From positions 1-21,742 of the IMG/VR virus record IMGVR_UViG_3300021962_000748: a stretch of DNA of 21,742 nucleotides. One strand, given 5' to 3'. Below are positions 2,689-20,494 of this stretch, piece after piece. Each line of letters starts with the position of its first letter. The first letter of the stretch is position 1. The notes beneath the pieces were generated by a model. That model was given only the letters and a program-made list of their open reading frames with translations, was not told the DNA's origin and searched no databases. Made by a program: the position numbers and the translations under genes. This stretch comes from a virus.

Positions 2689-3051
2689 TTATCGACCTTC
2701 TGCTAAAGTTTTTAGAACATCTGGAGGAAACTCTTTGTTCTCTCCTTTTTTCTTCATCGGAGCATTGAGTCCAGCAACGTAAAGACGAAAGTCTTTCATA
2801 AGACGCTCTCTCAATCTTTTTGTATCATCAATTGGCACAAGACCTCTTTTCTTTGCTTCTCTTTGAAGATCTGTCTTGTTCATTTCCGATAGTCTTTCCG
2901 CATATACATCTTCATCAAAAGTATTATACTTCATATAACCATCGTTGCCCCAAATTTGCTCTAGCGTGGTTGGCTCAAACTTCTGCTTTTCCTCCATGCC
3001 ATGAGTCTGCATGAAGTCTTCTAGGATTTGTTTAGATTTTTTACTAGCCAT
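2689..3051 (-). CDS. Small SAP-like domain protein
   Basis: 120 residues, charged, no membrane segment. Residues about 52-90 (LSEMNKTDLQREAKKRGL, then a basic segment ending LRERLMKDF) have the spacing of a SAP motif, a helix-turn-helix-like nucleic-acid-binding module seen in some phage proteins. It is the first gene after the terminator closing the capsid operon, and a TATAAT hexamer ends 7 nt before its ATG, so it probably begins a new transcript. No ribosome-binding site is visible. Its place between capsid and tail genes fits a minor virion or head-completion protein, but that is inference. The SAP reading rests on the motif by eye. Confidence 0.65.
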   Translation of the reverse strand: MASKKSKQILEDFMQTHGMEEKQKFEPTTLEQIWGNDGYMKYNTFDEDVYAERLSEMNKTDLQREAKKRGLVPIDDTKRLRERLMKDFRLYVAGLNAPMKKKGENKEFPPDVLKTLAEGR

Positions 3052-3058
3052 ATATTAA

Positions 3059-3064
3059 ATTATA
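3059..3064 (-). promoter_or_regulatory. TATAAT hexamer 7 nt before the 120-residue gene
   Basis: A perfect TATAAT (minus strand) lies between the capsid terminator and the ATG at 3051, with 7 nt between. No convincing -35 hexamer is seen at 16-18 nt. If it is a -10 element, transcription would begin at or next to the start codon. Confidence 0.5.
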
Positions 3065-3083
3065 TAAAAAATTGTAAATATAT

Positions 3084-3114
3084 AAAAAAAAAGAGGAGGA
3101 CCGAAGTCCTCCTC
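3084..3114 (-). terminator. Intrinsic terminator with UUCG tetraloop after the major capsid gene
   Basis: On the minus strand a perfect 9-bp GC-rich stem GAGGAGGAC / GTCCTCCTC closes a TTCG loop and is followed at once by nine T. It starts 23 nt past the capsid stop codon. This is a textbook rho-independent terminator with an exceptionally stable loop. Confidence 0.95.
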
Positions 3115-3137
3115 CTGAGAATAGTTTGACTGATGGA

Positions 3138-4238
3138 TTAGTTTGCTTCCAAAGTCAAAGCAACCGCAGCGCGGGTATCAACGCACACGCGACCCTCTTC
3201 AAGATGGCCGTAGAAGCCGAGCTTCTCGCTTCTTGCGCTGAACTGGTCGTCAGCAAGAGCAGTGAACGTGCTGTTGTCCTGAGTTGCGATAGCGCGGATG
3301 AAAGCTCCCTTGCTCGCATCAATACCAACAAGAACGTCGTCTGTTGTGCCACTGTATCCGCTCAAACCTGCTTGTGTAGCAAGGGTAGAGAACAAGTTGC
3401 TGTATTTCTTGTTGACGCCAAGCTCCATAATCTCAGTGATGTTGACACCAAAGAGGCTTCCAGCACCAGCAGCGCGATAAATTTCGTCGCGAACTGTGTT
3501 TGGAAGATCAGTGTTTGTCTTTGCACTGGCTCCACCTGTTACTCCTCCAACTGCATTGTAAGAAAATGCGCGGATGTCTTCCATAACCTCTGGAGAGATG
3601 AACAAGTCAGTGATTCCCTTGCTGAATGAATCAGCAGGAGTACCATTGGCGAATGACTCGTTAACGCGTCTCATGCGAGTCATCATCTGGTTCAAGTGAT
3701 CAAGCTGGAAGTCGGTTGTCGATGTCTTTTGAATAGTGTGAGACGATCCGCCAGTGCTACCATTGGCAACAGCCTTGAGGATAACCGCCCAAGCGTTGCG
3801 CTCTTGTTTGACAAGAACCTCTTGAGCCATTCTCTCAACCGCCTTGGCGAGAACATCAAGACGACCTCTGCGAGCATACTTCTTGAGGAAGCTAACAGCG
3901 GAGTCGAGACGATAAGGAGCAATCTTCAACTCTTGACCAGCAAAAACGTCCTGAGAGGTTGGTAGACCTCCAGCAACATTCTGACTGATAACAGAGAAGT
4001 AGTTGTCGCTCTCATTGTAGTAAAGGTCCAACGGAAAGCTGGGATTATCATCTGCGTCATATGGCGCATCTGTATAAACAGCACCGGCGGTTGCAGCCTG
4101 ATTGATAACCTGCGCAACAACTGGTCCGAGGAACGCTGCAAAAGCCTCTTGAGCTTCTCTGGCTTCAACAGCATTGCTGCTGCCCATAGCTTTTACAAGA
4201 GCTTCTTGTTCGGGAGTATTTTTTAAAGTAATTTTCAT
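3138..4238 (-). CDS. Major capsid protein (HK97-fold type)
   Basis: 366 residues, in the usual place: directly after the protease/scaffold and decoration-like genes and followed by a strong terminator. It has the make-up of an HK97-fold capsid protein. The N-terminal region to about residue 60 is helical and Ala/Gln-rich. A long spine-helix-like segment follows near residues 118-157 (RLDVLAKAVERMAQEVLVKQERNAWAVI region). A DLFISPEVMEDIR segment and a C-terminal beta-rich segment ending in GFYGHLEEGRVCVDTRAAVALTLE complete it. AATAGGA before the ATG provides ribosome binding. Base composition is visibly richer in G+C than in neighbouring genes, as expected for codon-optimised, highly expressed virion genes. 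The family call rests on context plus sequence style rather than a diagnostic motif. Confidence 0.85.
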   Translation of the reverse strand: MKITLKNTPEQEALVKAMGSSNAVEAREAQEAFAAFLGPVVAQVINQAATAGAVYTDAPYDADDNPSFPLDLYYNESDNYFSVISQNVAGGLPTSQDVFAGQELKIAPYRLDSAVSFLKKYARRGRLDVLAKAVERMAQEVLVKQERNAWAVILKAVANGSTGGSSHTIQKTSTTDFQLDHLNQMMTRMRRVNESFANGTPADSFSKGITDLFISPEVMEDIRAFSYNAVGGVTGGASAKTNTDLPNTVRDEIYRAAGAGSLFGVNITEIMELGVNKKYSNLFSTLATQAGLSGYSGTTDDVLVGIDASKGAFIRAIATQDNSTFTALADDQFSARSEKLGFYGHLEEGRVCVDTRAAVALTLEAN

Positions 4239-4277
4239 TTCTATTTTTCCTATTTTATTGATTGTTTACGATTAAGA

Positions 4278-4844
4278 CTATTGTGTAGGATCGCAATCGA
4301 TTCTGATCAACACGTAGTTATTGCTGTCCTTGGCACCAAGGGCAACGCCGACTTTCTTCTTGCCAGTGCTAGCAGTTGTTAGTTCGCCGTTAGCAGCACC
4401 GTAAAGAACGCTTGCCGCATCAACTGATTCGGCTGCGAGAGTGGCTCCACTGTAAAGGAATACTCCTCTTGTGGCAACTGGAACAGCCTGACCAGAAATC
4501 GCAGCTTGCATTTCAGCAGCTTTGCGAGGATTAAAAACGAGCTTCTCTCCATTTTCGTCAGTCTCTTTCAAATCGTAAAGAGTCATTCCAATTGGCGCAT
4601 CTCCAGAGCCAGCGATATTCAATGCGGCTTGAACGATGTAGCGGTTAGAAACGGCGCGGGTTGCATAGCTGGTAGAACCAACTGCGTTCTGGGTGTCACC
4701 GAAAATTTCATCGGTGCTTTCCCATCCCTGACCGCTTGTTAATTTCACGAATGTTCCCTTGTTAACGTTACTCTGATCTTTGAGAGTAAACAAGTTGATT
4801 ACGTCGTGTTCATCGTAATCTCTGAATGGTTTTAGTTGTGGCAT
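4278..4844 (-). CDS. Probable capsid decoration / head-stabilising protein
   Basis: 188 residues, rich in Ala, Gly, Ser and Thr, predicted mostly beta, with no membrane segment or coiled coil. It sits between the protease/scaffold and the major capsid protein, the slot usually taken by decoration proteins such as lambda gpD. The C-terminus (KVGVALGAKDSNNYVLIRID) has the short alternating-strand pattern seen in head-stabilisation proteins. AGGA lies upstream of the ATG within an AT-rich spacer. It shares the higher G+C of the capsid gene, again pointing to high expression. The assignment is mainly positional. Confidence 0.68.
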   Translation of the reverse strand: MPQLKPFRDYDEHDVINLFTLKDQSNVNKGTFVKLTSGQGWESTDEIFGDTQNAVGSTSYATRAVSNRYIVQAALNIAGSGDAPIGMTLYDLKETDENGEKLVFNPRKAAEMQAAISGQAVPVATRGVFLYSGATLAAESVDAASVLYGAANGELTTASTGKKKVGVALGAKDSNNYVLIRIDCDPTQ

Positions 4845-4885
4845 AATTTTATCCTATTTATTATTTTAGTTTATCTTTTTGTTTT

Positions 4886-5530
4886 TTAGTATTTGATACT
4901 GAAACCGTCTAAATTAAATGCATTTTTGTATTTCTCAGCCATAGAAACAGCTTGAGGTGTTGTAGTATTGGCGACCGCCTCTCCTTCAACTTCAGCTTCT
5001 TCTGTAGCTTCTTCGATGACTTCTTCAGCCTTTCCCTGAACAGGCTCTTCAGCCTTGACCTCTGGAGCAGCAACTGGAGCGCGAACGCCAGCAACAACCT
5101 CATTGGTCTTCAACTTCGAAGACATCAAAATTTTAATATCTTTTGCAAATGCTTCGAATCCTTCTTCATCAAGATCTTTGATCTGTGAAGCAAGAACTTC
5201 TCTGTCTGCATCAGAAAGGTTAATTTGTTCGTCAAGAGAAGCCATTCTTGAGCTAAATGTTTCAAGAGCTTGTCTTTCGGCTTCTGCGGCTTTCATTTCT
5301 TCAAGCTGGCTCTTGACTTCTTCGAAACTCTTCTTGAGGGCTTCGTGTTCTTCGGCCAATAGAGCAGCTTTTTCTTCTGCCGCTTTGATGGCTTCGTCGT
5401 ACTTTGTTTTCTCTTCGTGGAAACTCTCAGATGCCTTCTTCAATTCGCTTTCGACAAATTCGCTAACGACGGAAGCAGACATCTCCTTGAGATTTTCATC
5501 TGTGATATCTTGAATGCTATTAAGTTTCAT
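4886..5530 (-). CDS. Nested scaffold protein from an internal start (candidate)
   Basis: Met269 of the protease/scaffold gene (ATG at 5530) lies exactly at the border between the Lys/Asn-rich linker and the coiled-coil region. It is preceded by GTGTAAAGGA, which holds a Shine-Dalgarno-like AAAGGA 10 nt before the ATG. Starting here gives a 214-residue scaffold without the protease domain. The arrangement is known from lambda, where Nu3 is translated inside gene C. I see the start signal and the domain border; separate expression is inference. Confidence 0.55.
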   Translation of the reverse strand: MKLNSIQDITDENLKEMSASVVSEFVESELKKASESFHEEKTKYDEAIKAAEEKAALLAEEHEALKKSFEEVKSQLEEMKAAEAERQALETFSSRMASLDEQINLSDADREVLASQIKDLDEEGFEAFAKDIKILMSSKLKTNEVVAGVRAPVAAPEVKAEEPVQGKAEEVIEEATEEAEVEGEAVANTTTPQAVSMAEKYKNAFNLDGFSIKY

Positions 5531-6334
5531 GACGTTATTATCCTTTACACTGTTTTCTTTCGATTCTGAAATATTTTTTTCTATTTTTTTATTTTTTTCT
5601 GTATTAGTCAAAACGCCTTTGACATCTGCGGCAGGATTTTCCGTCAAACCGATTCCAAGAGGAATGATATTTCCTACCACTTGACGATATACGTTTTTGC
5701 CATTCATTTTTCCGCTTCCACCCAAAGCTTTTAGGTTTAACGCAAATTCTTGAACTTTTTCTGGTTCTACAATTTTTTCGGCATAAGCGATATTCTTTTC
5801 TCCTTGTCCAAGAAGAATAAGATTGTATTGATTGAATCCCAATTCCCAGCTTGCTGAAATTTTTTCGTAGTTTGAGCTTGTTGGATCGCTAGCGTCCTCA
5901 ATCAAATCTGCAAGTTCAGAATTAACGACCCTCCAAACTACTCCACCCAAGGTGATATTGAAAGGACCGTCAAGTTTCTCTACTTGCTCTTGGCTGAGTG
6001 GCTCATCAGAGCCAAACGCACTGAATCCAGCTTTTAAAATCACTCCCACGACTCTTTCGCGGTTATGCTCCAAATTAATCTGCTTGTTGACAAAAGATTG
6101 GCAAAGCTCAATAGCCGCCTTTGTATCAATTACGTCTCCGTTCTTATTGACTCTGTTTGCAACACAAGCATTAAATGCAATAGGAAGCAAATCGACATTT
6201 TTCTCAGTATCAATCTGAGGAAGAAAATTTTCCAGTTGAATCAAGCTTGCAAGAGCCAAGTATTCATCTTTTTCTGCTGAAACCAATGGTTTTACAACAG
6301 AACTAAAATTGGTTGTAAATTGAAAATCTTTCAT
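4886..6334 (-). CDS. Prohead protease fused to scaffold protein
   Basis: 482 residues with two parts. Residues 1 to about 230 resemble prohead maturation serine proteases. A His-containing segment NLEHNRERVVGVI (His90) matches the H..p..iG.i box of this group, and KISASWELGF (Ser160/Ser162) sits where the nucleophile box is expected. A Lys/Asn/Glu-rich linker (about 245-268) follows. Residues 270-482 form a long acidic, Ala/Glu/Lys-rich coiled coil with a low-complexity acidic tail, typical of an internal scaffold. The gene starts 2 nt after the preceding stop. An in-frame ATG at 5530, preceded by AAAGGA, could give the scaffold alone. The scaffold would guide capsid assembly and then be degraded by the protease. 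Catalytic residues are assigned by motif position only. Confidence 0.85.
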   Translation of the reverse strand: MKDFQFTTNFSSVVKPLVSAEKDEYLALASLIQLENFLPQIDTEKNVDLLPIAFNACVANRVNKNGDVIDTKAAIELCQSFVNKQINLEHNRERVVGVILKAGFSAFGSDEPLSQEQVEKLDGPFNITLGGVVWRVVNSELADLIEDASDPTSSNYEKISASWELGFNQYNLILLGQGEKNIAYAEKIVEPEKVQEFALNLKALGGSGKMNGKNVYRQVVGNIIPLGIGLTENPAADVKGVLTNTEKNKKIEKNISESKENSVKDNNVMKLNSIQDITDENLKEMSASVVSEFVESELKKASESFHEEKTKYDEAIKAAEEKAALLAEEHEALKKSFEEVKSQLEEMKAAEAERQALETFSSRMASLDEQINLSDADREVLASQIKDLDEEGFEAFAKDIKILMSSKLKTNEVVAGVRAPVAAPEVKAEEPVQGKAEEVIEEATEEAEVEGEAVANTTTPQAVSMAEKYKNAFNLDGFSIKY

Positions 6335-6336
6335 AG

Positions 6337-6981
6337 TTAAATATCTATTCTATAACCATATGAAGAATGTCCTTCATCTTCGTTTAAAAATAAGTCGGTA
6401 TCTGCATCAAACTCGTCAATGTTGATACCGTATTGATCAACATCTAATTCTGCTTGGACAAAATCCTCTTCTTCTGGTAGCCAAGCTTCTGTAAAATCTA
6501 AGTCTTCTGATGCTCTGGCAATATCTCCATCAGCCTTTCTATAAGCGTCTTTTACTTTGCCTCCAGCCATCATGCGCAAAAACATATTTACTCTTGCCAT
6601 CGCCCACTGACCTCTTGTTTTACCCGGACGATGAGTCTGGCTAAATGCTCCAGCCCCACGACGATAGACTTTTTTTAATTGACTTAGAGAAACTTTTTTA
6701 CTATATTTAGAATTATGCTCTTCAACCTTTGTTTTTAGAGCCTCAATTATCTTATTCGAATACTGTATCGAATCAGCTTGAGAAGAAATTAGTTTTCTAT
6801 CGTCTTTCTTTTTTAAGTCTTTCTCTGCAATTTCTTCGGCATCTGGCTTTGTACCAGCAGAACCCGGAGGGTTCTTTGGAGAACCTTTCACTTTTTCTTC
6901 CGGCTTCGACGGAGTTTGCGCAGAAGATTTTGGTCCCCTTCTTTTTGCCGACTTAATTTGTGATGAAAAATCAATTTCCAT
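6337..6981 (-). CDS. Conserved phage head-module protein of unknown function
   Basis: 214 residues from the ATG at 6981; a GTG at 7002 would add seven. I prefer 6981 because a perfect TATAAT ends 6 nt before it and the GTG start has no supporting signal. The N-terminus is a basic, Pro/Lys/Ser-rich, probably disordered stretch. The centre holds a compact basic motif (VSLSQLKKVYRRGAGAF, then HRPGKTRGQWAMARVNMFLRM) resembling a segment I recall from other phage structural-module proteins, though I cannot name a family. The C-terminus is very acidic. It lies directly upstream of the protease/scaffold, so a role in head assembly is likely but unproven. Confidence 0.75.
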   Translation of the reverse strand: MEIDFSSQIKSAKRRGPKSSAQTPSKPEEKVKGSPKNPPGSAGTKPDAEEIAEKDLKKKDDRKLISSQADSIQYSNKIIEALKTKVEEHNSKYSKKVSLSQLKKVYRRGAGAFSQTHRPGKTRGQWAMARVNMFLRMMAGGKVKDAYRKADGDIARASEDLDFTEAWLPEEEDFVQAELDVDQYGINIDEFDADTDLFLNEDEGHSSYGYRIDI

Positions 6982-6987
6982 TAGTCT

Positions 6988-6993
6988 ATTATA
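6988..6993 (-). promoter_or_regulatory. TATAAT hexamer 6 nt before the head-module operon
   Basis: Perfect TATAAT on the minus strand with 6 nt to the ATG at 6981. A GTGTAT element lies just upstream (6997-7002). It may yield a leaderless transcript, or act alongside the late-type element at 7037. Confidence 0.5.
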
Positions 6994-7036
6994 TAGATAC
7001 ACTTTTAATATTTAAAAAAATATATAAAAATATTAT

Positions 7037-7044
7037 TATTTATA
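7037..7044 (-). promoter_or_regulatory. T4-late-type promoter element TATAAATA before the head module
   Basis: TATAAATA on the minus strand, identical to the T4 late promoter -10 consensus, lies in the 86-bp (or 107-bp) gap before the head module. It is followed by T-rich sequence. A start site about 7 nt downstream would leave a leader of roughly 50 nt. A sigma-like protein encoded at 16945-17625 could be the matching factor. It lies in an AT-rich spacer, so a chance match is possible. Confidence 0.45.
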
Positions 7045-7088
7045 CTAATTCGTAATAAACGATAGCCTCTTCAAATAAAGAATACACT

Positions 7089-8113: not shown

Positions 8114-8114
8114 A

Positions 8115-8459
8115 TTATCTCATTTTTTTATTTGTATTTTTTCTTGTAGTTTTACGTTTTGAGCTTTTTGGCTCTTCTTTTTGTTGTTTTCCAAACATTT
8201 TTTCTGTTACCAACTCAACGCCTTTTAACCCAAGAAATCCTAACAAAAATGCTATTCCGTAATTCGCATTTGGAGTGTTTATTTTAAACAAGTCCAAAAT
8301 AATTGGAGTCATATAATTTGCGCTTGCTGCCCCGCCAATCAAAGACAATATTGTTGTTCGCAAATCTTCTGCTGCATTTTTACTCAAAAGTAAAATCGCT
8401 CCAAACAATCCACTGGTCAGCAGCCCGACATCTATTCCAATATTTTTTAAGTACTGCAT
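8115..8459 (-). CDS. Small holin-like membrane protein
   Basis: 114 residues. Hydrophobic segments lie near 10-25, 35-56 and 66-82, and the C-terminus is a dense Lys/Arg tail (KSSKRKTTRKNTNKKMR). Small size, two or three membrane spans and a highly basic C-terminus are general holin features. The gene lies between a spanin-like lipoprotein gene and another membrane protein gene. An AAGGAG sequence is present but about 20 nt upstream of the ATG. No endolysin gene is visible in this window, so the lysis role is inference from layout. Confidence 0.6.
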   Translation of the reverse strand: MQYLKNIGIDVGLLTSGLFGAILLLSKNAAEDLRTTILSLIGGAASANYMTPIILDLFKINTPNANYGIAFLLGFLGLKGVELVTEKMFGKQQKEEPKSSKRKTTRKNTNKKMR

Positions 8460-8481
8460 ACTAATATCCCAAAAAATACCA

Positions 8482-8784
8482 TCACTCCTTTTTATCTGAA
8501 AATGGATTTTCTATTTCAGTAGGCGCACTCATTTTTTTATAAATAACGTAACCAACGCTAAGTATAAAAAATGCTATCAAATAATATGCAATTAATTTAT
8601 TCCAATTTACTTTTATTTGCGTAGACTCTTTTTCTGAGCTACCCCTTAAAACGAGTATATCTTTATTATCCTTTTTAGGTACTAAATTCGAATGATCCAA
8701 AGAGGAGGGTTTTTGAGAAGAGCTTCCTATGAAACTAGAGCATCCCATAATAAATACGAATAAAATTAAGAACATTTTCTTCAT
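8482..8784 (-). CDS. Short lipoprotein with C-terminal membrane anchor (second spanin-like protein)
   Basis: 100 residues. Signal sequence with lipobox IMGC (Cys15), a Ser/Lys-rich hydrophilic middle of about 48 residues, a transmembrane segment at about 64-82, and a short charged tail. This is the same lipid-anchor-plus-membrane-segment layout as the 144-residue protein downstream, with a much shorter middle and no obvious sequence similarity. It overlaps the upstream holin-like gene by 1 nt (TAATG). It could be a u-spanin, or one partner of a pair working at the envelope. AAAGG lies a few nt before the ATG. Confidence 0.65.
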   Translation of the reverse strand: MKKMFLILFVFIMGCSSFIGSSSQKPSSLDHSNLVPKKDNKDILVLRGSSEKESTQIKVNWNKLIAYYLIAFFILSVGYVIYKKMSAPTEIENPFSDKKE

Positions 8785-9224
8785 TATTGCCTTTGAGCGG
8801 TTGAACTTCCAAAATAGTAGCCTATTATAGCCATCAGGCTTTGCCTTACTTCTGGTATCAAAAGATAACTTGAAAGCTCTACAAATTTCTTTTCAGTTCC
8901 TCCTCCAAACAATCCAAAAAGATAACTTCTCTTTTGTATATCTATCTCAACGATTGTCCCTTTACCCATGACCGCTAAAATAAATGGCGCGAGAATAACC
9001 CCAAAAAGAACGCTCAATACTATGACTCTTCTTACCCATCTTCCATTTGATCCCGGCTCTCTTTCTGAAGCGTCTTTTCTGCTTTTTTCAACGATATCAT
9101 TTCGCTGAACAAGCATCTTGAATTCTTCAGCTCTGTCCTTGGCTCTTTCAGCCATGAACTTGAATATGAAACCTGTGACGGCTCCAAATCCCATAGTCAA
9201 TAATTCAGGTGGTATCGGTAACAC
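8784..9224 (-). CDS. Three-segment membrane protein, holin-like
   Basis: 146 residues from a GTG at 9224; the next in-frame start is an ATG ten codons in. A hydrophobic N-terminal segment (about 8-24) is followed by an amphipathic charged helix, a strong membrane segment at about 67-88, and a C-terminal segment (about 122-142) ending in GYYFGSSTAQRQ. The order of elements, GRW before the central segment and a small-residue C-terminus, resembles the three-segment holin family known from gene transfer agents and phages. A GTGTAA element lies 9 nt before the GTG. The family link is from memory of its pattern. Confidence 0.65.
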   Translation of the reverse strand: MLPIPPELLTMGFGAVTGFIFKFMAERAKDRAEEFKMLVQRNDIVEKSRKDASEREPGSNGRWVRRVIVLSVLFGVILAPFILAVMGKGTIVEIDIQKRSYLFGLFGGGTEKKFVELSSYLLIPEVRQSLMAIIGYYFGSSTAQRQ

Positions 9225-9239
9225 AATTTTGTTTACACA

Positions 9240-9602
9240 TCATAAACCCTGATAATGGCCTTTTATTTTCCTGTCAAGAATGTCTCTCTCTATAACTAGC
9301 GGCTCTTTTTGTTCATTTAAATGCTTGATAGTCTCATTTATAATGAATAGCTGACCTTGTACATAGTTAAGTCTTTTGACTCTATCTCTCTTTAGTTGGA
9401 TTTTGTCTACTTCATCAGTAAGAAGGTCAGATTTTTTTTCAAGCTCTGCTAATCTATTTTCTGCAATAGCTTTTTGGATTACCTCGTCAGAGTCAGTCAA
9501 CTCTTCTTTGTTTATCAAAAAATGAGCTACTATAAAATAATTGACTTTCTTATTAATCCATTGGGAAATTTTTTTCGATATCTCTGCGACGAACTCTTTC
9601 AT
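9240..9602 (-). CDS. Small coiled-coil protein
   Basis: 120 residues, highly charged. A short moderately hydrophobic stretch (about 15-30) precedes a helical region rich in Leu, Glu and Lys (about 32-115) with heptad-like spacing. It starts inside the upstream gene, overlapping it by 50 nt in another frame, which favours translational coupling. No Shine-Dalgarno sequence is evident. The function is unknown; its place suggests it belongs to the membrane/lysis-like cassette. The long overlap makes the exact start less certain. Confidence 0.6.
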   Translation of the reverse strand: MKEFVAEISKKISQWINKKVNYFIVAHFLINKEELTDSDEVIQKAIAENRLAELEKKSDLLTDEVDKIQLKRDRVKRLNYVQGQLFIINETIKHLNEQKEPLVIERDILDRKIKGHYQGL

Positions 9603-9951
9603 ATGTATTTGCTAAAATATAAACTGATAAAATCGCCGCTGCTGGGGCGTTGATATGAGAAGACACGAATTGTGAAGTGACCGATAGGTAAACGAAATTG
9701 AAAGTTAAAAATAACGAAATCAATATAAACTCTGGATATTTAAACGGATTATCGTTAGCAACTTTAATAGCTTTTATCAAAGATTTATCTTTTTTAATTT
9801 CGTCCCATAGTTCTGGAATATTTTTAGCAAGACCTTTCGCTCCTTCATTCTTGTAAATTTTCCAGAAGTTCTTTATGAAAGCAACGTCTTCTTGTAATTC
9901 TTGAGCCGCCTCTTCGATAACTGAATCTAATTTATTTTTAATATTAGCCAT
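9553..9951 (-). CDS. Small two-segment membrane protein
   Basis: 132 residues. A soluble, Lys/Glu-rich helical N-terminal half is followed by two hydrophobic segments (about 72-92 and 97-112) and a charged tail. It is the first gene of the membrane cassette. A perfect TATAAT ends 7 nt before its ATG, and a 15-bp palindrome overlaps that site and the stop codon of the upstream tube-like gene. I recognise no family. The N-terminal helices could regulate or gate the membrane part, but nothing in the sequence proves a role. Confidence 0.65.
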   Translation of the reverse strand: MANIKNKLDSVIEEAAQELQEDVAFIKNFWKIYKNEGAKGLAKNIPELWDEIKKDKSLIKAIKVANDNPFKYPEFILISLFLTFNFVYLSVTSQFVSSHINAPAAAILSVYILANTYERVRRRDIEKNFPMD

Positions 9952-9953
9952 TA

Positions 9954-9968
9954 GTGATATTATATCAC
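9954..9968. promoter_or_regulatory. Palindrome overlapping a TATAAT element before the membrane cassette
   Basis: GTGATAT-T-ATATCAC is a perfect palindrome with 7-bp arms. It overlaps the TGA stop of the 412-residue gene and contains TATAAT (minus strand 9964-9959) 7 nt before the ATG at 9951. It could be an operator over a promoter, or chance in AT-rich sequence. Confidence 0.4.
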
Positions 9969-11203
9969 AATGCTCCAGATTCCAATAAGAATTTTTCTAT
10001 ATCTCCAGTATTCAATATTCCGCTGAAAAACACTCCGTAAGACAAATCTTCTTCTTTAAGCTCTGTTTTAAAATTTAAGGATACAGTTTTATTGTTTCCA
10101 ATTTGTAATCCATAGCTGATACCTTCAAGTTTCGCCTTTTTAGCAAAAATAGATGATCCTAAAGTCCGAGTATCAGTAGGATTTTTGCTATTATACAAAT
10201 TTATATTTATATCGTAATATCTGTCTTGTTGCGCTAATTCCGCAAAATTACCGCTACTCGTATCTCCAACTAAAGACTCAACTTGTATGGTTGCTCCTAT
10301 AGGGAAAATTATTGGTCGGTCTATAGGGGCTTTATGAGTAATAGAGTTTAGTTGATCCCGCTGGAAATCAATTGTTAAATTGAATTTTTGTATTTTAATA
10401 TCATTAAAACTAAAACCAAAGCCACTTTCTGGAACACTTCCAGATGTCTCAATCATGTCTAAAGTTATATCTCCTTGCGATATAGCTTTTGGTCCATCTG
10501 GTCTATAAAATTTTGGGATTACTGCATTGATACCAGTAGACAGCAATGACCTCGTTTTTGAGTCATAAGTCAATACGTCTACGCCAGATCCAGAAGTGTT
10601 AAAAGAGATAGTTTCAACAACATAATCTAAATCGCAACTAGCAATTGCTCCAACAGCACCTTGAAGCGTATAACTTTCCAAGTAGCAATCATGAAAGGTT
10701 ATTATATCAAAGTTTGGAGAATTATTATCAATGATAGTAGATACTGATGAAGAATCTAATGCGCCAGTTTGGGGAATAAGTACATCATTCCCTTCGTTTG
10801 CTACCGCTATATAAAAATTTCTTTTGTCTAGCGTTCTATCAGAATTACTAGCAAAGCCAGATGCCAAGAACAATGAAAATGTATCATCAACATAATTTAC
10901 ATCACCAGTTCTATAATTAAAATCGAAACCAAGTTTCTTCTCATTTGTAAATCCTTCAAATCCATAAGTCATTGAAAAATTTACTGCTGGTTTTGTTACT
11001 ACAACGCTTCTTTCCGTGCCGCGTTTGCCGAGCATTGTAATATCTTGATGATTCACAGATATTCCATATTGAACACCCTGAACATTAGAAATATTTTTTA
11101 AAATATTGTTTCCGGGGAATATAGATTCGTTGGCCCCACCGCTAATTTTTGGTGGACCTACATATACGGCTTCATTCTGATATATGACTCTTACTCTTGA
11201 CAT
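9965..11203 (-). CDS. Tail-tube-like structural protein following the portal
   Basis: 412 residues, beta-rich, no membrane segment. Residues about 42-85 (GVQYGISVNHQDI, LGKRG, FSMTYGF) and 168-205 (CYLESYTLQGA, ETISFNTSG) line up with the 277-residue and partial proteins at the left end of the window. Residues about 268-390 repeat the same order of elements (LTIDFQRDQL, then IGATIQVE, then AKLEGISYGLQIGN), so the protein looks like a duplicated tube fold. It overlaps the end of the portal gene by 13 nt, tying the two together. T4 also places its tube gene beside its portal gene. I infer a tail tube or tube-related protein; no tail sheath is in this window. Confidence 0.7.
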   Translation of the reverse strand: MSRVRVIYQNEAVYVGPPKISGGANESIFPGNNILKNISNVQGVQYGISVNHQDITMLGKRGTERSVVVTKPAVNFSMTYGFEGFTNEKKLGFDFNYRTGDVNYVDDTFSLFLASGFASNSDRTLDKRNFYIAVANEGNDVLIPQTGALDSSSVSTIIDNNSPNFDIITFHDCYLESYTLQGAVGAIASCDLDYVVETISFNTSGSGVDVLTYDSKTRSLLSTGINAVIPKFYRPDGPKAISQGDITLDMIETSGSVPESGFGFSFNDIKIQKFNLTIDFQRDQLNSITHKAPIDRPIIFPIGATIQVESLVGDTSSGNFAELAQQDRYYDININLYNSKNPTDTRTLGSSIFAKKAKLEGISYGLQIGNNKTVSLNFKTELKEEDLSYGVFFSGILNTGDIEKFLLESGAL

Positions 11204-13095
11204 GACTCTATTTTACTCAAGCTAAGAAGCGTTGCCATTTTAAAATCTAAGTCATGACTAGCAGCTATTTCATCGATATGATTAAACTGCTTTCTGTCTA
11301 CTGGATTTTCTATAAATTCTTGAATATTCTTAGAGTTCCAATCTTTCGGAGCGACATTTCTAGCAACCATTTCAGAAAGCATCGACGCATACTCATTCTG
11401 TTGAGTGGTGAGACGCTTTTTACCATGTTTTGCTCTAAGCTCTAGTTTCACTAACTTTTCTAATGAATCATACTGGTTCATCAATTCTACGAGTTTTTTC
11501 ATAGAATATTGCTCACTAGCCCTTGATGTCTCTATCTGACTTTCTCCTCCAGATCCGCTTGGTCTTCCAGCGTCTGGAGATGGTCCTCCAACTTTTCCGC
11601 CAATCAAAGGCTGGAAAAGACCTTCGTCTCTTAAAGCTTGGAATTTTCTTTGAGATTCAATTGAATCATCAAAATTTGGAAGCCTTCCAGTTTCGAGTGC
11701 GTGTAAGCCTTCTTCCGGAGTCAAAACGCCAAGTTCTACAAGCCTATTGTAAATTCTTCCAATGGCTACCTTGTCATCGAAATCAATGTCTTGAATTGTT
11801 GGAGTAGGAATAGATCTAAATCCTACTTCTTTACCAATCCGCTTCATTTCTGGAATCAAGAAGTCTTTGAGAAATGCTTTTCTAGATTCATTTAATTTTT
11901 GGACAAAAACTATCATCTTGATTTTAACATTAGCAAATTTCTCTTCATTTAAAAGAATATTACCAAGTCCTTCCCTGATGTCTCTATCTAGAACTTCATA
12001 CTTTTTAGGATCAAGAATATCAGCGATCTGTGGAATCACGAACTTAGCGTCAGTCGTGTAATCTGCGACCAATACTCTACCGACAGACTCATTTGCAAAA
12101 AGGCTTTGTAAAGCAATTAAGTTTTTCGGGTTGACGCCACCTTCTCCCGGTTTTGTTCCAGTAGTAACAAGCAAGATTGCTTGCTGCATTGTACGGCTAA
12201 TAGCCATATCCATTTTTCTCAATTCTTTTTTATAATCTAAATCTTCAAGAACTGGAAAACCTAATGGTACAGCGAAAGGCTCGTAATCTTGTTTTTTATA
12301 AAAAACTCCATACGTACGCCTTGGGTCTAAAATCATTGTTACAGTACCAGAGTCAGTATTTTTGATTGTCTTTTTTGCTTGCTCTGGCAGATTATCAAAA
12401 ACCTCTTGATCTTGCTCTGTTTTTGGATATTTTAATCTTGCTACTTCATAGTCGCTCAGTACTTTAAAATAAGATCCAGAGGCGAATGATATATTACCTC
12501 CCATTTGTATATCAGCAGGATTGAGGATGCTATATTTTGCTGGCAACTTCATTTCAGCGGCCTTGAGGAGAGATGTTCCGAAAGTTTGAGTAATCTTCTT
12601 TATTTCGTCCTCTTTGATTTTATAATCGAATCTATAAATAAATACATTTCCAGATCTATAATACTCTCTAAAGAACTGGTCTTGAAAATTCCAAATATTG
12701 ATCTTTTTAAAAAGAGCATTAAAGAAGTCTCTTGACTTTTTATTGCCGCCTTCAAGATAAATATCTCCAACAGAAAACTCTGACATCAAATCGATGGTGT
12801 TTCTGAAAACCGCGATATTGTAGTAAGCTTTTTGGCAAAGAACAACGGCGTCTCTGACATCAAGGTTGGAAGTATTTTGAGCGGTCTTGGAATAATTGAA
12901 TGGGATAAGTCCATCTTCAATATTTGTAAATCTTTGGGTTCTTTCTATAAAGGCGGCACGATTTCCTCTGGTACGCGTAGAAACGCCAGTAGAAGCCGCT
13001 TTGATTTCAGCCATCAATGGAGATGGAAGCTGTTCTTTTGAGCTAGCTTGTATCGTATCACCTTGAGCCTGTTGTTTTTTCTTGCTGATAGCCAT
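11191..13095 (-). CDS. Portal protein
   Basis: 634 residues, directly downstream of the terminase large subunit, the standard portal position. The order fits a portal: a disordered basic N-terminus, a mixed alpha/beta wing (about 85-290, including NVFIYRFDYKI and the LDPRRTYGVFY strand), and a long helical segment with FANVKIKMIVFVQKLNESRKAFLKDF cut here by residues only partly shown. After it come a Gly/Pro-rich loop near 500-520 and a C-terminal helical crown. The portal forms the dodecameric DNA channel at the capsid vertex and docks the terminase. The start has GAGG about 2-5 nt before the ATG and a GTGTAA element 12 nt upstream. The size matches large portals of the myovirus type. The call rests on context and architecture. 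Confidence 0.85.
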   Translation of the reverse strand: MAISKKKQQAQGDTIQASSKEQLPSPLMAEIKAASTGVSTRTRGNRAAFIERTQRFTNIEDGLIPFNYSKTAQNTSNLDVRDAVVLCQKAYYNIAVFRNTIDLMSEFSVGDIYLEGGNKKSRDFFNALFKKINIWNFQDQFFREYYRSGNVFIYRFDYKIKEDEIKKITQTFGTSLLKAAEMKLPAKYSILNPADIQMGGNISFASGSYFKVLSDYEVARLKYPKTEQDQEVFDNLPEQAKKTIKNTDSGTVTMILDPRRTYGVFYKKQDYEPFAVPLGFPVLEDLDYKKELRKMDMAISRTMQQAILLVTTGTKPGEGGVNPKNLIALQSLFANESVGRVLVADYTTDAKFVIPQIADILDPKKYEVLDRDIREGLGNILLNEEKFANVKIKMIVFVQKLNESRKAFLKDFLIPEMKRIGKEVGFRSIPTPTIQDIDFDDKVAIGRIYNRLVELGVLTPEEGLHALETGRLPNFDDSIESQRKFQALRDEGLFQPLIGGKVGGPSPDAGRPSGSGGESQIETSRASEQYSMKKLVELMNQYDSLEKLVKLELRAKHGKKRLTTQQNEYASMLSEMVARNVAPKDWNSKNIQEFIENPVDRKQFNHIDEIAASHDLDFKMATLLSLSKIESCQE

Positions 13096-13113
13096 GCCTC
13101 TATATTTTACACC

Positions 13114-15850: not shown

Positions 15851-16943
15851 TTAAAGCCTCCTCTTTTGAAAGCCCGAAAATTCTAGACTTAAGCTCATCC
15901 ATGCTAGAAAGATTCTCTATTTCTTTTTCGACAATCTGTTTTCTCATATTAGCTAGCTTGATTATTTTCATCCTAGATTCTTCGTCCTTCCAAGCTTCTA
16001 CTAAATTAAGGATACTAGCATTTTCCTTGACATGTTTACTGATTCTCTCACTTCTTTTTATCTTCAAGTCGTTGAGAAGTTTCTGTTGCCTATTGACGCA
16101 TTGATTGTATTCTGTGCGAGCAGAACTGATAGACTCAACAAGAGACATAGAAATTCTTCGTCCTTCTGTATCGTCAGCTATGTCATCTAATAATTCTTGG
16201 AGCCTTACGATATTAGCTTGGATACTTGATGAAATGACTACTTCTGTGGCAAGTACAATATACTGGTCAACTTCTTCTTGAGTTAGATCTGGCTTATCAT
16301 GCGTATATCTAATGAAAGAGCTTTCAAACAAATTTTGATCTTGTTCAGAAGTATAAGTATTTATTTGATGCGAGTATCTAAATGTGTGAAGATAACCAAG
16401 AAGGACTTCTGCGCATTTTCTTTGAGCAGGAGTTAGCTTATCTTTATCGTATCCAGTCGGAACATATTTATTTATTCTTTGTATCGCAGCATTTAAACTT
16501 TTCGGCGGCTTGTATCCGCTTCCATCATTAGCAGAGTCTTCATTTTCTGCTATGATATGAGTTATTCTTGGATCAAGAGTTTTTATATGATCTCTAACAA
16601 GATTGACTTCGTTATTTAAATTCGTAAGCTCTTTGTTCTGAAATATAGCTCTAGCTATTTCGAGAGGCTTCATCAAAGCGCAGTGATTAGCTACATATGA
16701 TTTTTGATCTTCTGTTAATTCTGGAACTTCTTTCTTCTGATATTCGTGAGATTTTCTTGCATTTAGATTTCTCTCTCTGAGAAACTTTGATACAGCTTTG
16801 CCATACTTTGTCCTGCCATCGTAGTTCTCATCTGGATAAGCTTGTTTTATTAAATCTATTAGAGATGGCGGTTCTTCATTTTCATTCCAAAGTTTTAGTA
16901 CCGCCATTTTTTGCTCATCGTTCAAGAATACTTCTTCATTCAT
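15843..16943 (-). CDS. HTH-like DNA-binding protein of unknown role (small-terminase candidate)
   Basis: 366 residues, almost all helical. The N-terminal part (residues 8-110) holds two short helical bundles with helix-turn-helix character: SLIDLIKQAYPDE followed by the basic KFLRERNLNARKSH stretch, and a second with LTEDQKSYVANH and MKPLEIARAIF. The remainder is a long charged helical region, partly coiled coil. It starts 1 nt after the sigma-like gene and overlaps the nuclease gene by 8 nt. Lying two genes before terL, it could be the small terminase subunit, which is otherwise missing here, but it is longer than usual. A replication or late-transcription role is equally open. Confidence 0.6.
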   Translation of the reverse strand: MNEEVFLNDEQKMAVLKLWNENEEPPSLIDLIKQAYPDENYDGRTKYGKAVSKFLRERNLNARKSHEYQKKEVPELTEDQKSYVANHCALMKPLEIARAIFQNKELTNLNNEVNLVRDHIKTLDPRITHIIAENEDSANDGSGYKPPKSLNAAIQRINKYVPTGYDKDKLTPAQRKCAEVLLGYLHTFRYSHQINTYTSEQDQNLFESSFIRYTHDKPDLTQEEVDQYIVLATEVVISSSIQANIVRLQELLDDIADDTEGRRISMSLVESISSARTEYNQCVNRQQKLLNDLKIKRSERISKHVKENASILNLVEAWKDEESRMKIIKLANMRKQIVEKEIENLSSMDELKSRIFGLSKEEALNG

Positions 16944-16944
16944 A

Positions 16945-17625
16945 CTAGAATATTATCTCTTCATCCTCTAAAAGCTTTTTTGCTTTTAGCGCAATAGACT
17001 TCATTAAATTCTTTATTTGTTTGTAGCCGGGGCTTTTAGTTTTCTCTTTTACTCTGTATCCCAATTTTTTCGCAGCAGCTTCTTCAGACATTTTTTCTAC
17101 AAACACATATTCAAAAACTTTTTGCTCTGTAGGCTTTAGCTTTGGAACCAATTTCTCTCTAATCTGCTCGAAAGCTAACTGTAAGTCTATATGCCCACAT
17201 TCATAAGATTCTACTGAGTTCATATTTTCATCTAGAGAGACTGGAAGCTTTGTATTATAAGCTTTCTTTTTATTTTTTTCCCAGTTTTTAAAAAGCGGAC
17301 ACGATGAGCATTGAGATCCATAAATAGCGCACATATCTTCATGCTCTGAAGCAGCGCATTTTAAGCATGGCTTTACATAATTTCCATAGTTGTTACGAAT
17401 TAAATTTTTAATTTGATTTGAAATTATTCGATTAAGCCAAGGTTGCAGAGGCTTCGCTTGATCATATAGGTGCCACTTTTTAAAAACATGAAATCTTAGG
17501 ATTTGACTGACATCGTCAAAATCCATCCAATTTATAATTTTAAGAGTCCATTTGCCTTTTCTTTTGGCAATTTCTGAATCAATTATCTCTACGCAATCTT
17601 CGTATTTTATCTTTTTTTTAGACAT
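16945..17625 (-). CDS. Sigma-70-like RNA polymerase factor with a cysteine cluster
   Basis: 226 residues. Residues about 30-80 (DFDDVSQILRFHVFKKW, then PLQPWLNRIISNQIKNLIR) read like sigma region 2. Residues about 163-215 (LKPTEQKVFEYVFVEKMSEE, then AAAKKLGY) read like region 4, with its helix-turn-helix. Between them five cysteines (87, 90, 99, 106, 109) form a probable metal site. The arrangement recalls phage late sigma factors such as T4 gp55, which recognise mainly a -10 element. It stands at the head of the late gene block, overlapping a zinc-ribbon gene by 8 nt. I infer that it directs host RNA polymerase to phage promoters, perhaps the TATAAT and GTGTAA elements reported here. Confidence 0.75.
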   Translation of the reverse strand: MSKKKIKYEDCVEIIDSEIAKRKGKWTLKIINWMDFDDVSQILRFHVFKKWHLYDQAKPLQPWLNRIISNQIKNLIRNNYGNYVKPCLKCAASEHEDMCAIYGSQCSSCPLFKNWEKNKKKAYNTKLPVSLDENMNSVESYECGHIDLQLAFEQIREKLVPKLKPTEQKVFEYVFVEKMSEEAAAKKLGYRVKEKTKSPGYKQIKNLMKSIALKAKKLLEDEEIIF

Positions 17626-17881
17626 CCTTTGAAGGGGGGATTAATTCGCCAAGCTTTATAGTTCTCGCTTTAATAACTTCGATGTCTACGTCCAATTTGC
17701 TCAACTCAGGAATCTTGTCTCCAAATTCTCTCTGATCTTCTTGAATAGCGACTTTTACGGTTTTAGTGTGTTCTCTTGCTTTACTAGAAAACATCGGAGA
17801 CTTGCATTTCACGCAAGAATTGCTTCTCTTTGATTGAAAGTAATCGTTTTTTGACCCGCACTTTGGACAATACACATTCAT
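17618..17881 (-). CDS. Small zinc-ribbon protein
   Basis: 87 residues. The N-terminus has two CxxC pairs, CPKC (5-8) and CVKC (22-25), forming a zinc ribbon. A charged, probably flexible C-terminal part follows. It overlaps the sigma-like gene by 8 nt and is the first gene of the minus-strand late block. A perfect TATAAT ends 5 nt before the ATG. Small zinc ribbons next to sigma or polymerase factors are often transcription co-factors, so it may assist the sigma-like protein. That role is inference. Confidence 0.75.
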   Translation of the reverse strand: MNVYCPKCGSKNDYFQSKRSNSCVKCKSPMFSSKAREHTKTVKVAIQEDQREFGDKIPELSKLDVDIEVIKARTIKLGELIPPSKDV

Positions 17882-17886
17882 AACAA

Positions 17887-17895
17887 ATTATACAC
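17887..17895 (-). promoter_or_regulatory. GTG-TATAAT element before the late block
   Basis: TATAAT (minus 17892-17887) with GTG directly before it, ending 5 nt before the ATG at 17881, in the 44-bp gap between divergent genes. It combines the two recurrent start-proximal motifs of this window, GTGTA and TATAAT. Confidence 0.5.
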
Positions 17896-17925
17896 TTTTA
17901 AAAAAAAATATAAAATAATTAAAGT

Positions 17926-18096
17926 ATGAAGGTAAATAAAAATCAACTTCAATTGTTAGAAGAAAAAATAGAAGAAATCAAAAAATGTTCTTTTGCTTAT
18001 ATTCATAAATACGGTAGTCAGACTCAAATTGTTCAAATAAATACTCTGGCTTACGAATGTGGCAAAATTATCAAAGAAAAACTAAAACAAGAATAA
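17926..18096 (+). CDS. Small helical protein, 56 residues
   Basis: ATG at 17926 to TAA at 18094-18096, 56 codons. The product begins MKVNKNQLQLLEEKIEEIKK and ends GKIIKEKLKQE. It is charged and mostly helical, with two cysteines (21 and 45) and no membrane segment. It fills the gap between the divergent late block and phoH on the plus strand, and phoH starts 18 nt after its stop. An AT-rich TAAAAT lies 9 nt before the start. Codon use and amino-acid balance look like real coding sequence. The function is unknown. Confidence 0.65.
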   Translation: MKVNKNQLQLLEEKIEEIKKCSFAYIHKYGSQTQIVQINTLAYECGKIIKEKLKQE

Positions 18097-18114
18097 CGAG
18101 TGTAAAAGATATAT

Positions 18115-18870
18115 ATGCCGAGATCCAGAAAGGCACCTAAAAAACCTAAACAAGACAACTTTGAAGAAGAATTGATTCAAAGTGAAGACGTTAGTTTTAA
18201 ACCTAAAACTAACTTAAAAATAAAAGAACTAAATTGGACGCCAAGACAAAGAGAGTTTTTTAAATTAGCTTTTCAAGAAAACACAAGAGTAGTATTAATA
18301 TCTGGCCCAGCGGGAACATCAAAAACTCTATTGGCTGTATATTGTGGATTAAGAATGATGAAAGAAGCTAAAATTTCTGAGATCATGTATCTTAGGTCTG
18401 CTGTAGAATCTAGCGAAGCAAAGCTAGGATTTTTACCGGGAAGCGCAGAAGAAAAACTTAGTTTTTATAACCTTCCATTTTTAGATAAAATAACAGAACT
18501 CGTTCAAAACTCAAGTGCGGAAAGACTGATTATAGAAAATAAAATAGAGATGTTTCCAGTTAATTTCGCCCGAGGACTCAATTGGACTCACAAATTTATT
18601 ATTTTAGATGAAGCCCAAAATTCTACCAAGAAAGAATTGACCACTGTTTTAACAAGACTGAGTGAAGGAAGCAAGTGCTTTATTCTTGGCGACCCAATGC
18701 AAACAGATCTAAAGCCCGGATTTGGCGGGGCATTTGAAAAAATAATAAATTTGCTGGACGATGAAGAAAGTAGAAAAATGGGAATTATTTCATTCAAATT
18801 CACAGAAGAAGATATTATGAGAGATGAGATAGTTAAATATCTTGTTAAAAAACTAAAAGCATTCAATTAA
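18115..18870 (+). CDS. phoH: PhoH-family ATPase
   Basis: 251 residues. Walker A GPAGTSKT (about 64-71), Walker B FIILDEAQN (about 161-169) and the LGDPMQTD motif (about 191-198) appear in the usual PhoH order. A basic, Lys-rich N-terminal tail precedes the domain. PhoH proteins are RNA-associated P-loop NTPases common in marine and freshwater phages; their role in infection is not settled. No KH or PIN domain is attached. It is on the plus strand after the 56-residue gene, with a GTGTAA element 9 nt before the ATG and no clear Shine-Dalgarno sequence. Confidence 0.93.
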   Translation: MPRSRKAPKKPKQDNFEEELIQSEDVSFKPKTNLKIKELNWTPRQREFFKLAFQENTRVVLISGPAGTSKTLLAVYCGLRMMKEAKISEIMYLRSAVESSEAKLGFLPGSAEEKLSFYNLPFLDKITELVQNSSAERLIIENKIEMFPVNFARGLNWTHKFIILDEAQNSTKKELTTVLTRLSEGSKCFILGDPMQTDLKPGFGGAFEKIINLLDDEESRKMGIISFKFTEEDIMRDEIVKYLVKKLKAFN

Positions 18871-18888
18871 ACAAGTGTAATAAACATT

Positions 18889-19338
18889 ATGCCATTACCG
18901 AAACCTAAAAAAGACGAGCAAAAGAATGACTTCGTATCTCGCTGCATGGGCGACGAAACAATGAAAAAGGACTTTAAAGACAATAAACAGAGAGTCGCCG
19001 TTTGCCTTGCTCAATTTAGCAAAAAAGACTCAAAAGCGAATTGGGCAAATAAAGCCTATCACGAAGAAATGGAAGAAGAATCTCCAATGCACGAAGAAAT
19101 GGAAACAGAAGAAATGGAGATGGAAGAAGGCCAAATGGAAGATGGCAGCGAAGAAGAAAAAGACTACGAGGGCGAAATGGCTAAAATTCAATTGATGAAA
19201 ATCGCTGACAACGCAATGCAAATTGCGAGAATGATCAAAAGCGAAGACCAACAGTTGGAAGCTTGGGTTCAAGACAAAATCAGCGTGTCAGAACATCACA
19301 TGCAAGCTGTAAGAGACTACATGAAGTATGGACAGTGA
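18889..19338 (+). CDS. Acidic phage protein with MPLPKP/CM...VC N-terminal motif
   Basis: 149 residues. The N-terminus (MPLPKPKKDEQKNDFVSRCM, then QRVAVCLAQF) matches a motif I recall at the start of many phage proteins, often attached to protease or structural domains. The middle (about 58-98) is a Glu/Met-rich low-complexity stretch. The C-terminus (AWVQDKISVSEHHMQAVRDY) is a helical motif also familiar from phage proteins. Both ends are present with only a disordered linker between them. It starts 18 nt after phoH with a GTGTAA element about 9 nt before the ATG, and ends convergent with the signal peptidase gene 11 nt away. The function is unknown. Confidence 0.75.
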   Translation: MPLPKPKKDEQKNDFVSRCMGDETMKKDFKDNKQRVAVCLAQFSKKDSKANWANKAYHEEMEEESPMHEEMETEEMEMEEGQMEDGSEEEKDYEGEMAKIQLMKIADNAMQIARMIKSEDQQLEAWVQDKISVSEHHMQAVRDYMKYGQ

Positions 19339-19349
19339 GAGGGCGGTTA

Positions 19350-19829
19350 TTAAAACAATACCTTTCCAAGTACCTGTTCTTTAGAGATGATATAGTACAT
19401 ACTTTCATCTCTATTGTCGCCTATTATAAAATACTGGCTTGTGCTAAGTTTTGTCTTCAATAAAGATAATGGATATTTATTAGAAGAAAAATCTGTATTG
19501 GTTTTTTGATTTATTATTATTTGACCGTCTTTTATTTCAATCCAGTCTCCCTCCTCGGCCAGAATCCTTTTTATGACTACGACCTCTTTTATTGAGGAGT
19601 CTGTTTCTTCCAAGATTTCGGCGCAAATTATGTCTCCTATTTCGGGTGCGCTATTTTTATAATAATCATAACTAACCACACTCCAGTCATGGTCAAAGTA
19701 GGTATCCTCCATGCTAGTTCCACTAACAACCACAAAATTATACTTATAGTTCAATAGGTAACAAAAGAAATAGACATAAAGAAAATACCTAAATAAACAA
19801 AGCAATAATTTATGATTTTTGCGGCTCAT
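19350..19829 (-). CDS. Signal peptidase I (family S26)
   Basis: 159 residues. One N-terminal membrane segment (about 12-34) is followed by the S26 boxes in order: VSGTSMEDT with the nucleophile Ser39, IGDII (about 64-68), VIKRILAEEGD with general-base Lys87, and GDNRDES (137-143). The C-terminal DSR part of the last box is not conserved. It would cleave signal peptides at the outer face of the inner membrane. It is short but complete compared with small bacterial enzymes. The ATG overlaps the stop of the frame-disrupted upstream gene by 4 nt (ATGA). Signal peptidase I is uncommon in phages; its natural substrate here is unknown, since the spanin-like lipoproteins would need signal peptidase II. 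Confidence 0.9.
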   Translation of the reverse strand: MSRKNHKLLLCLFRYFLYVYFFCYLLNYKYNFVVVSGTSMEDTYFDHDWSVVSYDYYKNSAPEIGDIICAEILEETDSSIKEVVVIKRILAEEGDWIEIKDGQIIINQKTNTDFSSNKYPLSLLKTKLSTSQYFIIGDNRDESMYYIISKEQVLGKVLF

Positions 19830-20120
19830 AAATGTTTTTCAAAAAGTTCGATGTCTTGTTTGAACAATAATTCCAAATCAGATCTGCGGCAATTTTCTTT
19901 TGTTGGCTTGAAATTCATTTTTGGGGTTTTAATCAACTTTATTTCTAAAAGATTTATCTTTACCATAAACATATTCTTTGGTCTTATGATCTGCCCATAA
20001 GTATGCGTCATGATAATTTACGCAAAAAAGCTGTCTACGCAATTGATTCAATAATTCAGGATATGGTCTTACTGGATGTAGCTGATATATAAAACACTTG
20101 GTGAAACTTACGCGGCTCAT
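19826..20120 (-). pseudogene. Frame-disrupted small gene upstream of signal peptidase
   Basis: Two overlapping minus-strand reading frames look like one protein of about 97 residues. The first runs from the ATG at 20120 (MSRVSFTKCFIYQLHPVRPY, then LWADHKTKEYVYG) to a stop at 19929. The second, in the +1 frame, is open from 20011 and ends at 19826 with an ATGA overlap onto the signal peptidase start. The shared open stretch is 19929-20011. The first part has a TATAAT 5 nt before its ATG and the second is coupled to the next gene, so both ends look real. It may be a true frameshift mutation, a sequencing error, programmed +1 frameshifting, or two small overlapping genes. No classic slippery site is obvious. 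The function is unknown. Confidence 0.55.
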
Positions 20121-20131
20121 ATAATATTATA
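20120..20131. promoter_or_regulatory. Compact divergent start region with two overlapping-strand TATAAT elements
   Basis: Only 11 bp separate the divergent ATGs at 20120 (minus) and 20132 (plus). The plus strand has TATAAT at 20120-20125, 6 nt before its ATG. The minus strand has TATAAT at 20131-20126, 5 nt before its ATG. No Shine-Dalgarno sequence can fit for either gene. Confidence 0.55.
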
Positions 20132-20494
20132 ATGTTTGATTGGCTAAAAGAGCAGCATAAAAATAGCGTATACAAAGATATACACAAAAATGTGCTGGAA
20201 GAATTTGAGCAAGAGCTGCGCGAATCGGCGGTGGACATGAAGTTCGAAAACTTTGCATTTTTTGACAACAATCTGGCGGCGGCAAACAGCTTGTACGTGT
20301 CGCGCATTTGCGACGAAAATCCGGCGGCATTTTATATTTTCACCAATGTAAACATGAAAGAATATGAGCTTCAAGAATTCATAGAAGAAATAGACACAAA
20401 AAGTCGCTTTGTTGCAGTTGAAATCGACGGGGCGTTGTTTGTTACCCGCAAAAGCATGTGGAAAAAGATGCAGAATGGATATAACTTGTATTGA
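20132..20494 (+). CDS. Hypothetical protein, 120 residues
   Basis: 120 residues, acidic, soluble, mixed alpha/beta, with no membrane segment or cysteine cluster. The N-terminus is helical (FDWLKEQHKN, then LEEFEQELRE). The C-terminal half alternates strands and helices (FYIFTNVNMKEYELQEFIEE, then RFVAVEIDGALFVTRK). Part of the gene (about 20200-20330) is richer in G+C, with gcggcg runs, than its surroundings. It is divergent from the frame-disrupted gene with an 11-bp gap and has a TATAAT 6 nt before the ATG. I recognise no family and propose no function. Confidence 0.72.
   Translation: MFDWLKEQHKNSVYKDIHKNVLEEFEQELRESAVDMKFENFAFFDNNLAAANSLYVSRICDENPAAFYIFTNVNMKEYELQEFIEEIDTKSRFVAVEIDGALFVTRKSMWKKMQNGYNLY

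Follow-up and report, generated by a model that had tools for sequence, protein, structure and literature searches.

We consider it likely that many transcription units in a widespread clade of uncultured phages are headed by promoters that give rise to leaderless mRNA, with transcription predicted to start on or near the ATG. The promoters fall into two classes, one built on the hexamer TATAAT and the other on GTG-TAATAT, which looks to be a new promoter element. In the first-pass annotation of this DNA, leaderless expression had been attributed to TATAAT alone, read by a factor resembling gp55 of T4. The core of that reading stands: -10-type elements are found at unit heads, their spacing would put the start on the ATG, operon-internal genes use a Shine-Dalgarno (SD) sequence, and the pattern is repeated in a held-out set. 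The restriction to TATAAT has to be given up, and the sigma factor looks less like gp55 than had been proposed.

The window, meaning the whole stretch of DNA analysed (21,742 nt, or 21.7 kb), comes from IMG/VR and is part of the genome of a large phage. Its TerL matches 247 relatives in that database and shares only about 25% identity at best with the cultured phages in the collection. About 150 related contigs supplied 1,937 non-redundant upstream regions, of which 1,105 formed a discovery set (the first k-mer count covered 81 related contigs) and 832 a held-out set; the contigs of the latter were found via the sigma factor and were filtered to exclude overlap with the discovery set. The contigs are fragments, each gene start was simply taken as the ATG that gives the longest frame, and early and late regions were assigned from gene content, not by timing. 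The analysis computed how far motifs are enriched, how close they come to the start, how they covary with the SD, where in the operon they lie and how well they are conserved; we infer transcript 5' ends, the pairing of sigma factor and motif, timing, and that the host translates leaderless mRNA. The end of the window (21646-21667) carries a strong G/C hairpin followed by a T run, likely a terminator.

The first-pass annotation had listed six gene starts with an exact TATAAT 5-7 nt before the ATG and no SD. All six hexamers and their spacings are exact, and none of the six starts has an SD. They are not six separate sites, as those of 20120(-) and 20132(+) are two readings of one palindrome, TATAATATTATA, and count as one observation. 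The sites, together with a neighboring terminator, are as follows:

3059-3064, minus strand: TATAAT, 7 nt before the ATG of gene 2689-3051, after an intrinsic terminator
3091-3116, minus strand: intrinsic terminator (11-pair stem, T run), marking the end of the capsid operon, directly ahead of the promoter of 3051
6988-6993, minus strand: TATAAT, 6 nt before the ATG of gene 6337-6981
9959-9964, minus strand: TATAAT, 7 nt before the ATG of gene 9553-9951, adjoining the preceding gene's stop codon
17887-17895, minus strand: GTG-TATAAT, with TATAAT at 17887-17892, 5 nt before the ATG of gene 17618-17881
20120-20131, either strand: palindrome TATAATATTATA, placing TATAAT 5 nt (20126-20131, minus) and 6 nt (20120-20125, plus) before an ATG; weakly supported

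Gene 17618-17881 encodes a zinc-ribbon protein and is the first in the sigma/terminase operon. Around the palindrome, ORF 19929-20120 is without relatives in the contig set and may not be a gene, and the TATAAT of the 20132 gene is not kept in L014, which holds that gene's only relative. The same neighborhood contains a signal peptidase I gene (Peptidase_S26, 19350-19829), unusual for a phage, with a relative in L014. The small ORFs between it and the 20132 gene (19826-20120) had no match in the contig set; since the two genes are directly divergent in L014, this segment may be an insertion or non-coding.

TATAAT is frequent throughout the window (35 versus 23.5 expected), and together with the palindromic pair this raises the question of whether the hexamers occur by chance in AT-rich DNA. 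For the class as a whole chance is refuted and scarcely credible, even though single sites may be fortuitous. Within the window, TATAAT-N3-9-ATG occurs 9 times against 2.5 expected (the maximum of 100 shuffles was 8), and TATAAT lies 5-25 nt upstream of 6 gene starts against 1.1 expected. The excess near starts, the lack of which would have refuted the first-pass reading by its own terms, is also present in the relatives once composition is controlled. In the discovery set TATAAT is found at 5-8 nt 28 times over a background of 4, and no other A3T3 hexamer exceeds 12; in the held-out set the figures near starts are 19 versus 5.2, with other A3T3 hexamers at 11 or below. Off-position controls agree with this positional excess, the TATAAT of 9951 is kept in 4/4 relatives, and long relatives have -35 boxes at the right distance.

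TATAAT is nevertheless not the main start signal it had been taken for, but the minor one in the clade. Near starts, the previously unremarked GTG-TAATAT outnumbers it about threefold (152 versus 51 genes). Among k-mers upstream of genes in the 81 contigs, GTGTAA was the strongest (154 versus 21.9 expected), compared with 118 versus 65 for TATAAT. In the window, GTGTA occurs at 7 sites 5-25 nt before starts, where 0.5 would be expected. These include:

6998-7002, minus strand: GTGTA, 16 nt before the ATG of 6981
9234-9238, minus strand: GTGTA, 9 nt before the GTG start of gene 8784-9224
13108-13112, minus strand: GTGTA, 12 nt upstream of the portal gene's ATG (gene 11191-13095); conserved in 7/7 close relatives
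18100-18108, plus strand: GTG-TAAAAG, GTGTA 10 nt before the ATG of phoH (18115-18870)
18875-18883, plus strand: GTG-TAATAA, GTGTA 9 nt before the ATG of gene 18889-19338
20539-20543, plus strand: GTGTA, 25 nt before the ATG of gene 20569-21540; of the short-leader type, with an A-rich leader

Across the clade GTGTA is carried by phoH, by the portal gene and by genes for tail or virion proteins, among others. Upstream of phoH the motif lies at 9-25 nt and is present in 29/30 relatives, with identities as low as 40%. It was also considered as a general feature of marine phages and rejected as such, being absent at that position from HTVC008M, P-SSM2, Melnitz-1 and T4, with one site in Mosig.

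The GTG is directly followed by TA in 111/138 cases at the leaderless register compared with 10/61 at a control register, most often as TAATAT, TAAATA or TAATAA. Close orthologues of 17881 have GTG-TATAAT; in distant ones TATAAT or GTGTAA stands there, equally far from the ATG. The GTG thus seems to sit immediately against the -10 hexamer, around positions -15 to -13. The extended -10 of sigma-70 promoters has TGn before the hexamer, from which the GTG differs in spacing by one base. GTGTAA could instead bind an activator or repressor of the phage and overlap a weak -10, rather than being a sigma contact; the flank upstream of GTGTA is merely AT-rich, with no clear or conserved -35 element, and at some sites (6981) TATAAT stands apart from GTGTA. 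We regard this as quite unlikely, because the fixed register of the TA hexamer and the fixed minimal distance to the ATG suit contact with the polymerase best.

Both signals show a sharp minimum of hexamer-to-ATG spacing at 5-6 nt. TATAAT lies 5-9 nt before the ATG. In the discovery set hardly any genes have GTGTA nearer than 9 nt; the counts peak at 9 nt and 10 nt, with 21-22 genes at each, and then fall off in a long tail. The held-out set gives the same profile. A fixed lower limit with a tail fits a promoter with a fixed distance to the start, whereas for a ribosome site both an upper and a lower limit would be expected. If a short spacing means that there is no leader, the SD should be missing there and permitted farther off, and this prediction was tested. 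With GTGTA at 9-13 nt an SD is found in 1/73 genes of the discovery set, compared with 26/52 at 17-32 nt (Fisher, 2e-11). The held-out set gives 2/79 at short and 11/35 at far spacing (3e-5), so that both sets together have 3/152 versus 37/87. Genes without the motif have an SD in 28% (discovery) and 25% (held-out) of cases. The rarity of SDs at short spacing is partly forced by lack of space: AT-rich control hexamers at 5-9 nt likewise go with few SDs (12/87 versus 4/38, p = 0.77). As the contrast for TATAAT is not significant against these controls, the SD argument alone is weak for this class, and its case rests on position and spacing.

Stronger evidence comes from genes that exist in two layouts. 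Orthologues of 3051 have either TATAAT at 7-9 nt and no SD (4/4) or GTGTA at 20-28 nt and an SD (6/6), and those of 6981 have GTGTA either at 10-11 nt without an SD (3) or at 27-28 nt with one (3). It could still be that the promoters are real and the leaders short, about 5-15 nt, with translation by some other SD-free route. Spacings of 14-16 nt do occur with few SDs (3/22 in the discovery set) and the leaders are AT-rich. This reading is unlikely, as the modal spacings (9-10 nt for GTGTA, 5-8 nt for TATAAT) are those at which a sigma-70-type start would fall on the A. A leader of 1-7 nt would look the same in sequence as none at all, and transcription may begin on the A of the ATG or a few bases off.

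Operon position separates promoter from ribosome site. GTGTA at 9-13 nt precedes 1.4% of operon-internal genes and 7-24% of others. A -10 at 5-9 nt is found at 3.4% of operon-internal genes (2.7% at the control offset) compared with 8-20% of others (controls 1-6%), and at genes directly behind another gene both TATAAT and GTGTA are near background. The first-pass annotation had set against the TATAAT genes four operon genes with SDs; those of 15850, 4844 and 4238 are real, and the latter two are conserved, but at 13095 only 1 nt separates the GAGG from the ATG, too little for an SD. GTGTAA lies 9-13 nt from the ATG and takes the place of the SD at those genes, as would a non-SD ribosome-binding element on mRNAs with ordinary leaders. 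That it is a translation signal of this kind is very unlikely: it is nearly missing at operon-internal genes, those most in need of a ribosome site, it persists at 20-30 nt with an SD then added downstream, and it shares a register with TATAAT at gene 17881. Moreover, to our knowledge the conserved 3' end of 16S rRNA is not complementary to GTGTAA.

Convincing -35 boxes had been described as mostly absent, as for gp55. This is so within the window, where promoter-like sites show no excess (63 versus 60.3 expected), but not in long relatives, many TATAAT sites of which have TTGAC at 17 nt. In the small-gene regions of two of them (G001, 125-137 kb; G002, 99-123 kb), which are probably early, TTGAC lies 17 nt upstream of TATAAT-like hexamers. 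For TTGAC-N16-18-TATAAT-like elements the -10 ends 6, 7 and 8 nt before the ATG in 10, 10 and 6 genes, with about one gene per other offset; the held-out set has 9, 1 and 6 genes at these offsets, and SDs in 2/49. With such a box the TATAAT class resembles ordinary sigma-70 promoters. In these regions the promoter stands at the first gene and SDs at the following ones (e.g., G001 134391 and 135179). Genes with sigma-70-type promoters encode an endonuclease, an endolysin-like protein and proteins of no known function.

The candidate reader of GTG-TAATAT lies beside the terminase:

16945-17625, minus strand: sigma-70-family protein with region 2, a weak match to region 4 and a conserved Cys-rich insert

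Sigma70_r2 (PF04542) scores over the Pfam cut-off in this protein and in the relatives, and the match to region 4 is weak (E 0.0069, below the cut-off). The gene is kept beside the terminase, with 50 matches in the contig set (sigma loci among all relatives number more than 548), and the Cys-rich insert between regions 2 and 4 (CxxC...C...C), possibly a zinc site, is invariant. In an AlphaFold model (pTM 0.39) region 2 and the C-terminal helices are confident, their arrangement is not. The fold matches of the model are sigma factors, ECF among the best, with E ~0.01 and a low overall TM; a PDB sequence search with the sigma profile gave no match. The protein had been described as gp55-like. 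It does belong to the sigma-70 family, but with its weak region 4 match, C-terminal helices and Cys-rich insert it looks ECF-like instead. Judging from co-occurrence and conservation, it is the best candidate and probably the factor that reads GTG-TAATAT. The long relatives G001, G002 and G014 have three sigma-70-family genes each (one of those in G014 is below the Pfam cut-off); the further sigmas of the longest relatives are an RpoD-like protein (273-317 aa) and another, the third, with about 205 aa. An RNA polymerase of the phage's own was rejected, as no beta subunit (PF00562) was found in ten records of relatives, some of them incomplete.

Several known systems share features with these promoters. 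T4 late promoters, read by gp55, are likewise -10-only and lack a -35. They differ in motif, as the octamer TATAAATA is not the enriched element here (TATAAT and GTG-TAATAT are), and in their sigma, which here has a Cys-rich insert and what seems to be a region-4-like part. T4 late transcripts are also leadered; in our calibration the late promoters lie 14-35 nt from the ATG, never 5 nt, and 12/13 genes have an SD. In two T4-like phages of SAR11, TATAAATA does lie exactly 5 nt before the ATG, in 7-8 genes of HTVC008M (L124, L126, L127) and 4 of Mosig (L225, L226), with an SD in at most one or two; sites farther off mostly have one. By the known T4 geometry, 5 nt puts the start on the ATG. As no such site was found in T4 or P-SSM2, and one in an OM43 phage, this parallel layout suggests host-linked convergence. 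SPO1-type cascades similarly have several phage sigmas and more than one promoter class, and their motifs are unrelated to those described here. The jumbo phages phiKZ and AR9 use short motifs close to the transcription start, but through a phage multisubunit polymerase, and AR9 leaders are 26-491 nt (PMC5312081). A further likeness is to TA-led bacterial genes, for which both the TA signal as proxy for leaderless expression and the rule of operon-proximal position have been published (Zheng et al., 2011, PMC3160421). These have TANNNT ~10-12 nt before the start, no SD and an operon-proximal position, with SDs at distal genes; signal, absence of SD and position were all found here. The differences are the setting, a phage clade, and GTG-TAATAT, which falls outside their TA-like consensus.

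With a -10 ending 5-7 nt before the start codon, the polymerase would begin at or near the A of the ATG, leaving no leader and no SD, and genes farther down the operon would be translated via SDs. Where the start codon is at least 17 nt from the motif, an SD would often be put in the leader. The sigma-70-type TATAAT would most simply be served by sigma-70 of the host or by a sigma-70-like factor that the phage encodes; a phage-encoded sigma would probably read GTG-TAATAT, which precedes phoH, portal, tail and other genes. It is, in our judgment, an even call whether the sigma with the Cys-rich insert redirects the host polymerase to an extended -10 (GTG plus TAATAT), such that late unit heads, like the early sigma-70 promoters, would be leaderless and first genes throughout the clade would bypass the SD.

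A TerL search of GTDB genomes for a host found nothing. The sigma profile matched two MAG contigs, one from a 'Flavobacteriales' MAG and one from an uncultured bacterium, too weak a basis to name a host. Both carry GTGTA before several genes; in the latter (L230), with a sigma only 41% identical, it lies 9-14 nt before six genes. Early promoters of the TTGAC/TATAAT type argue against a Bacteroidota host. The leaderless layout itself suggests that the hosts translate leaderless mRNA well, which would be a further clue to their identity.

Discussions of leaderless expression usually concern individual phage genes, for instance lambda cI, or treat it as characteristic of some bacteria. In the phages described here, which form an abundant, mostly marine, uncultured clade, a leaderless start looks to be standard for the heads of transcription units. 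The apparently new promoter element lends itself to sequence searches, could help to revise start codon and operon annotations, and is testable with one purified sigma.
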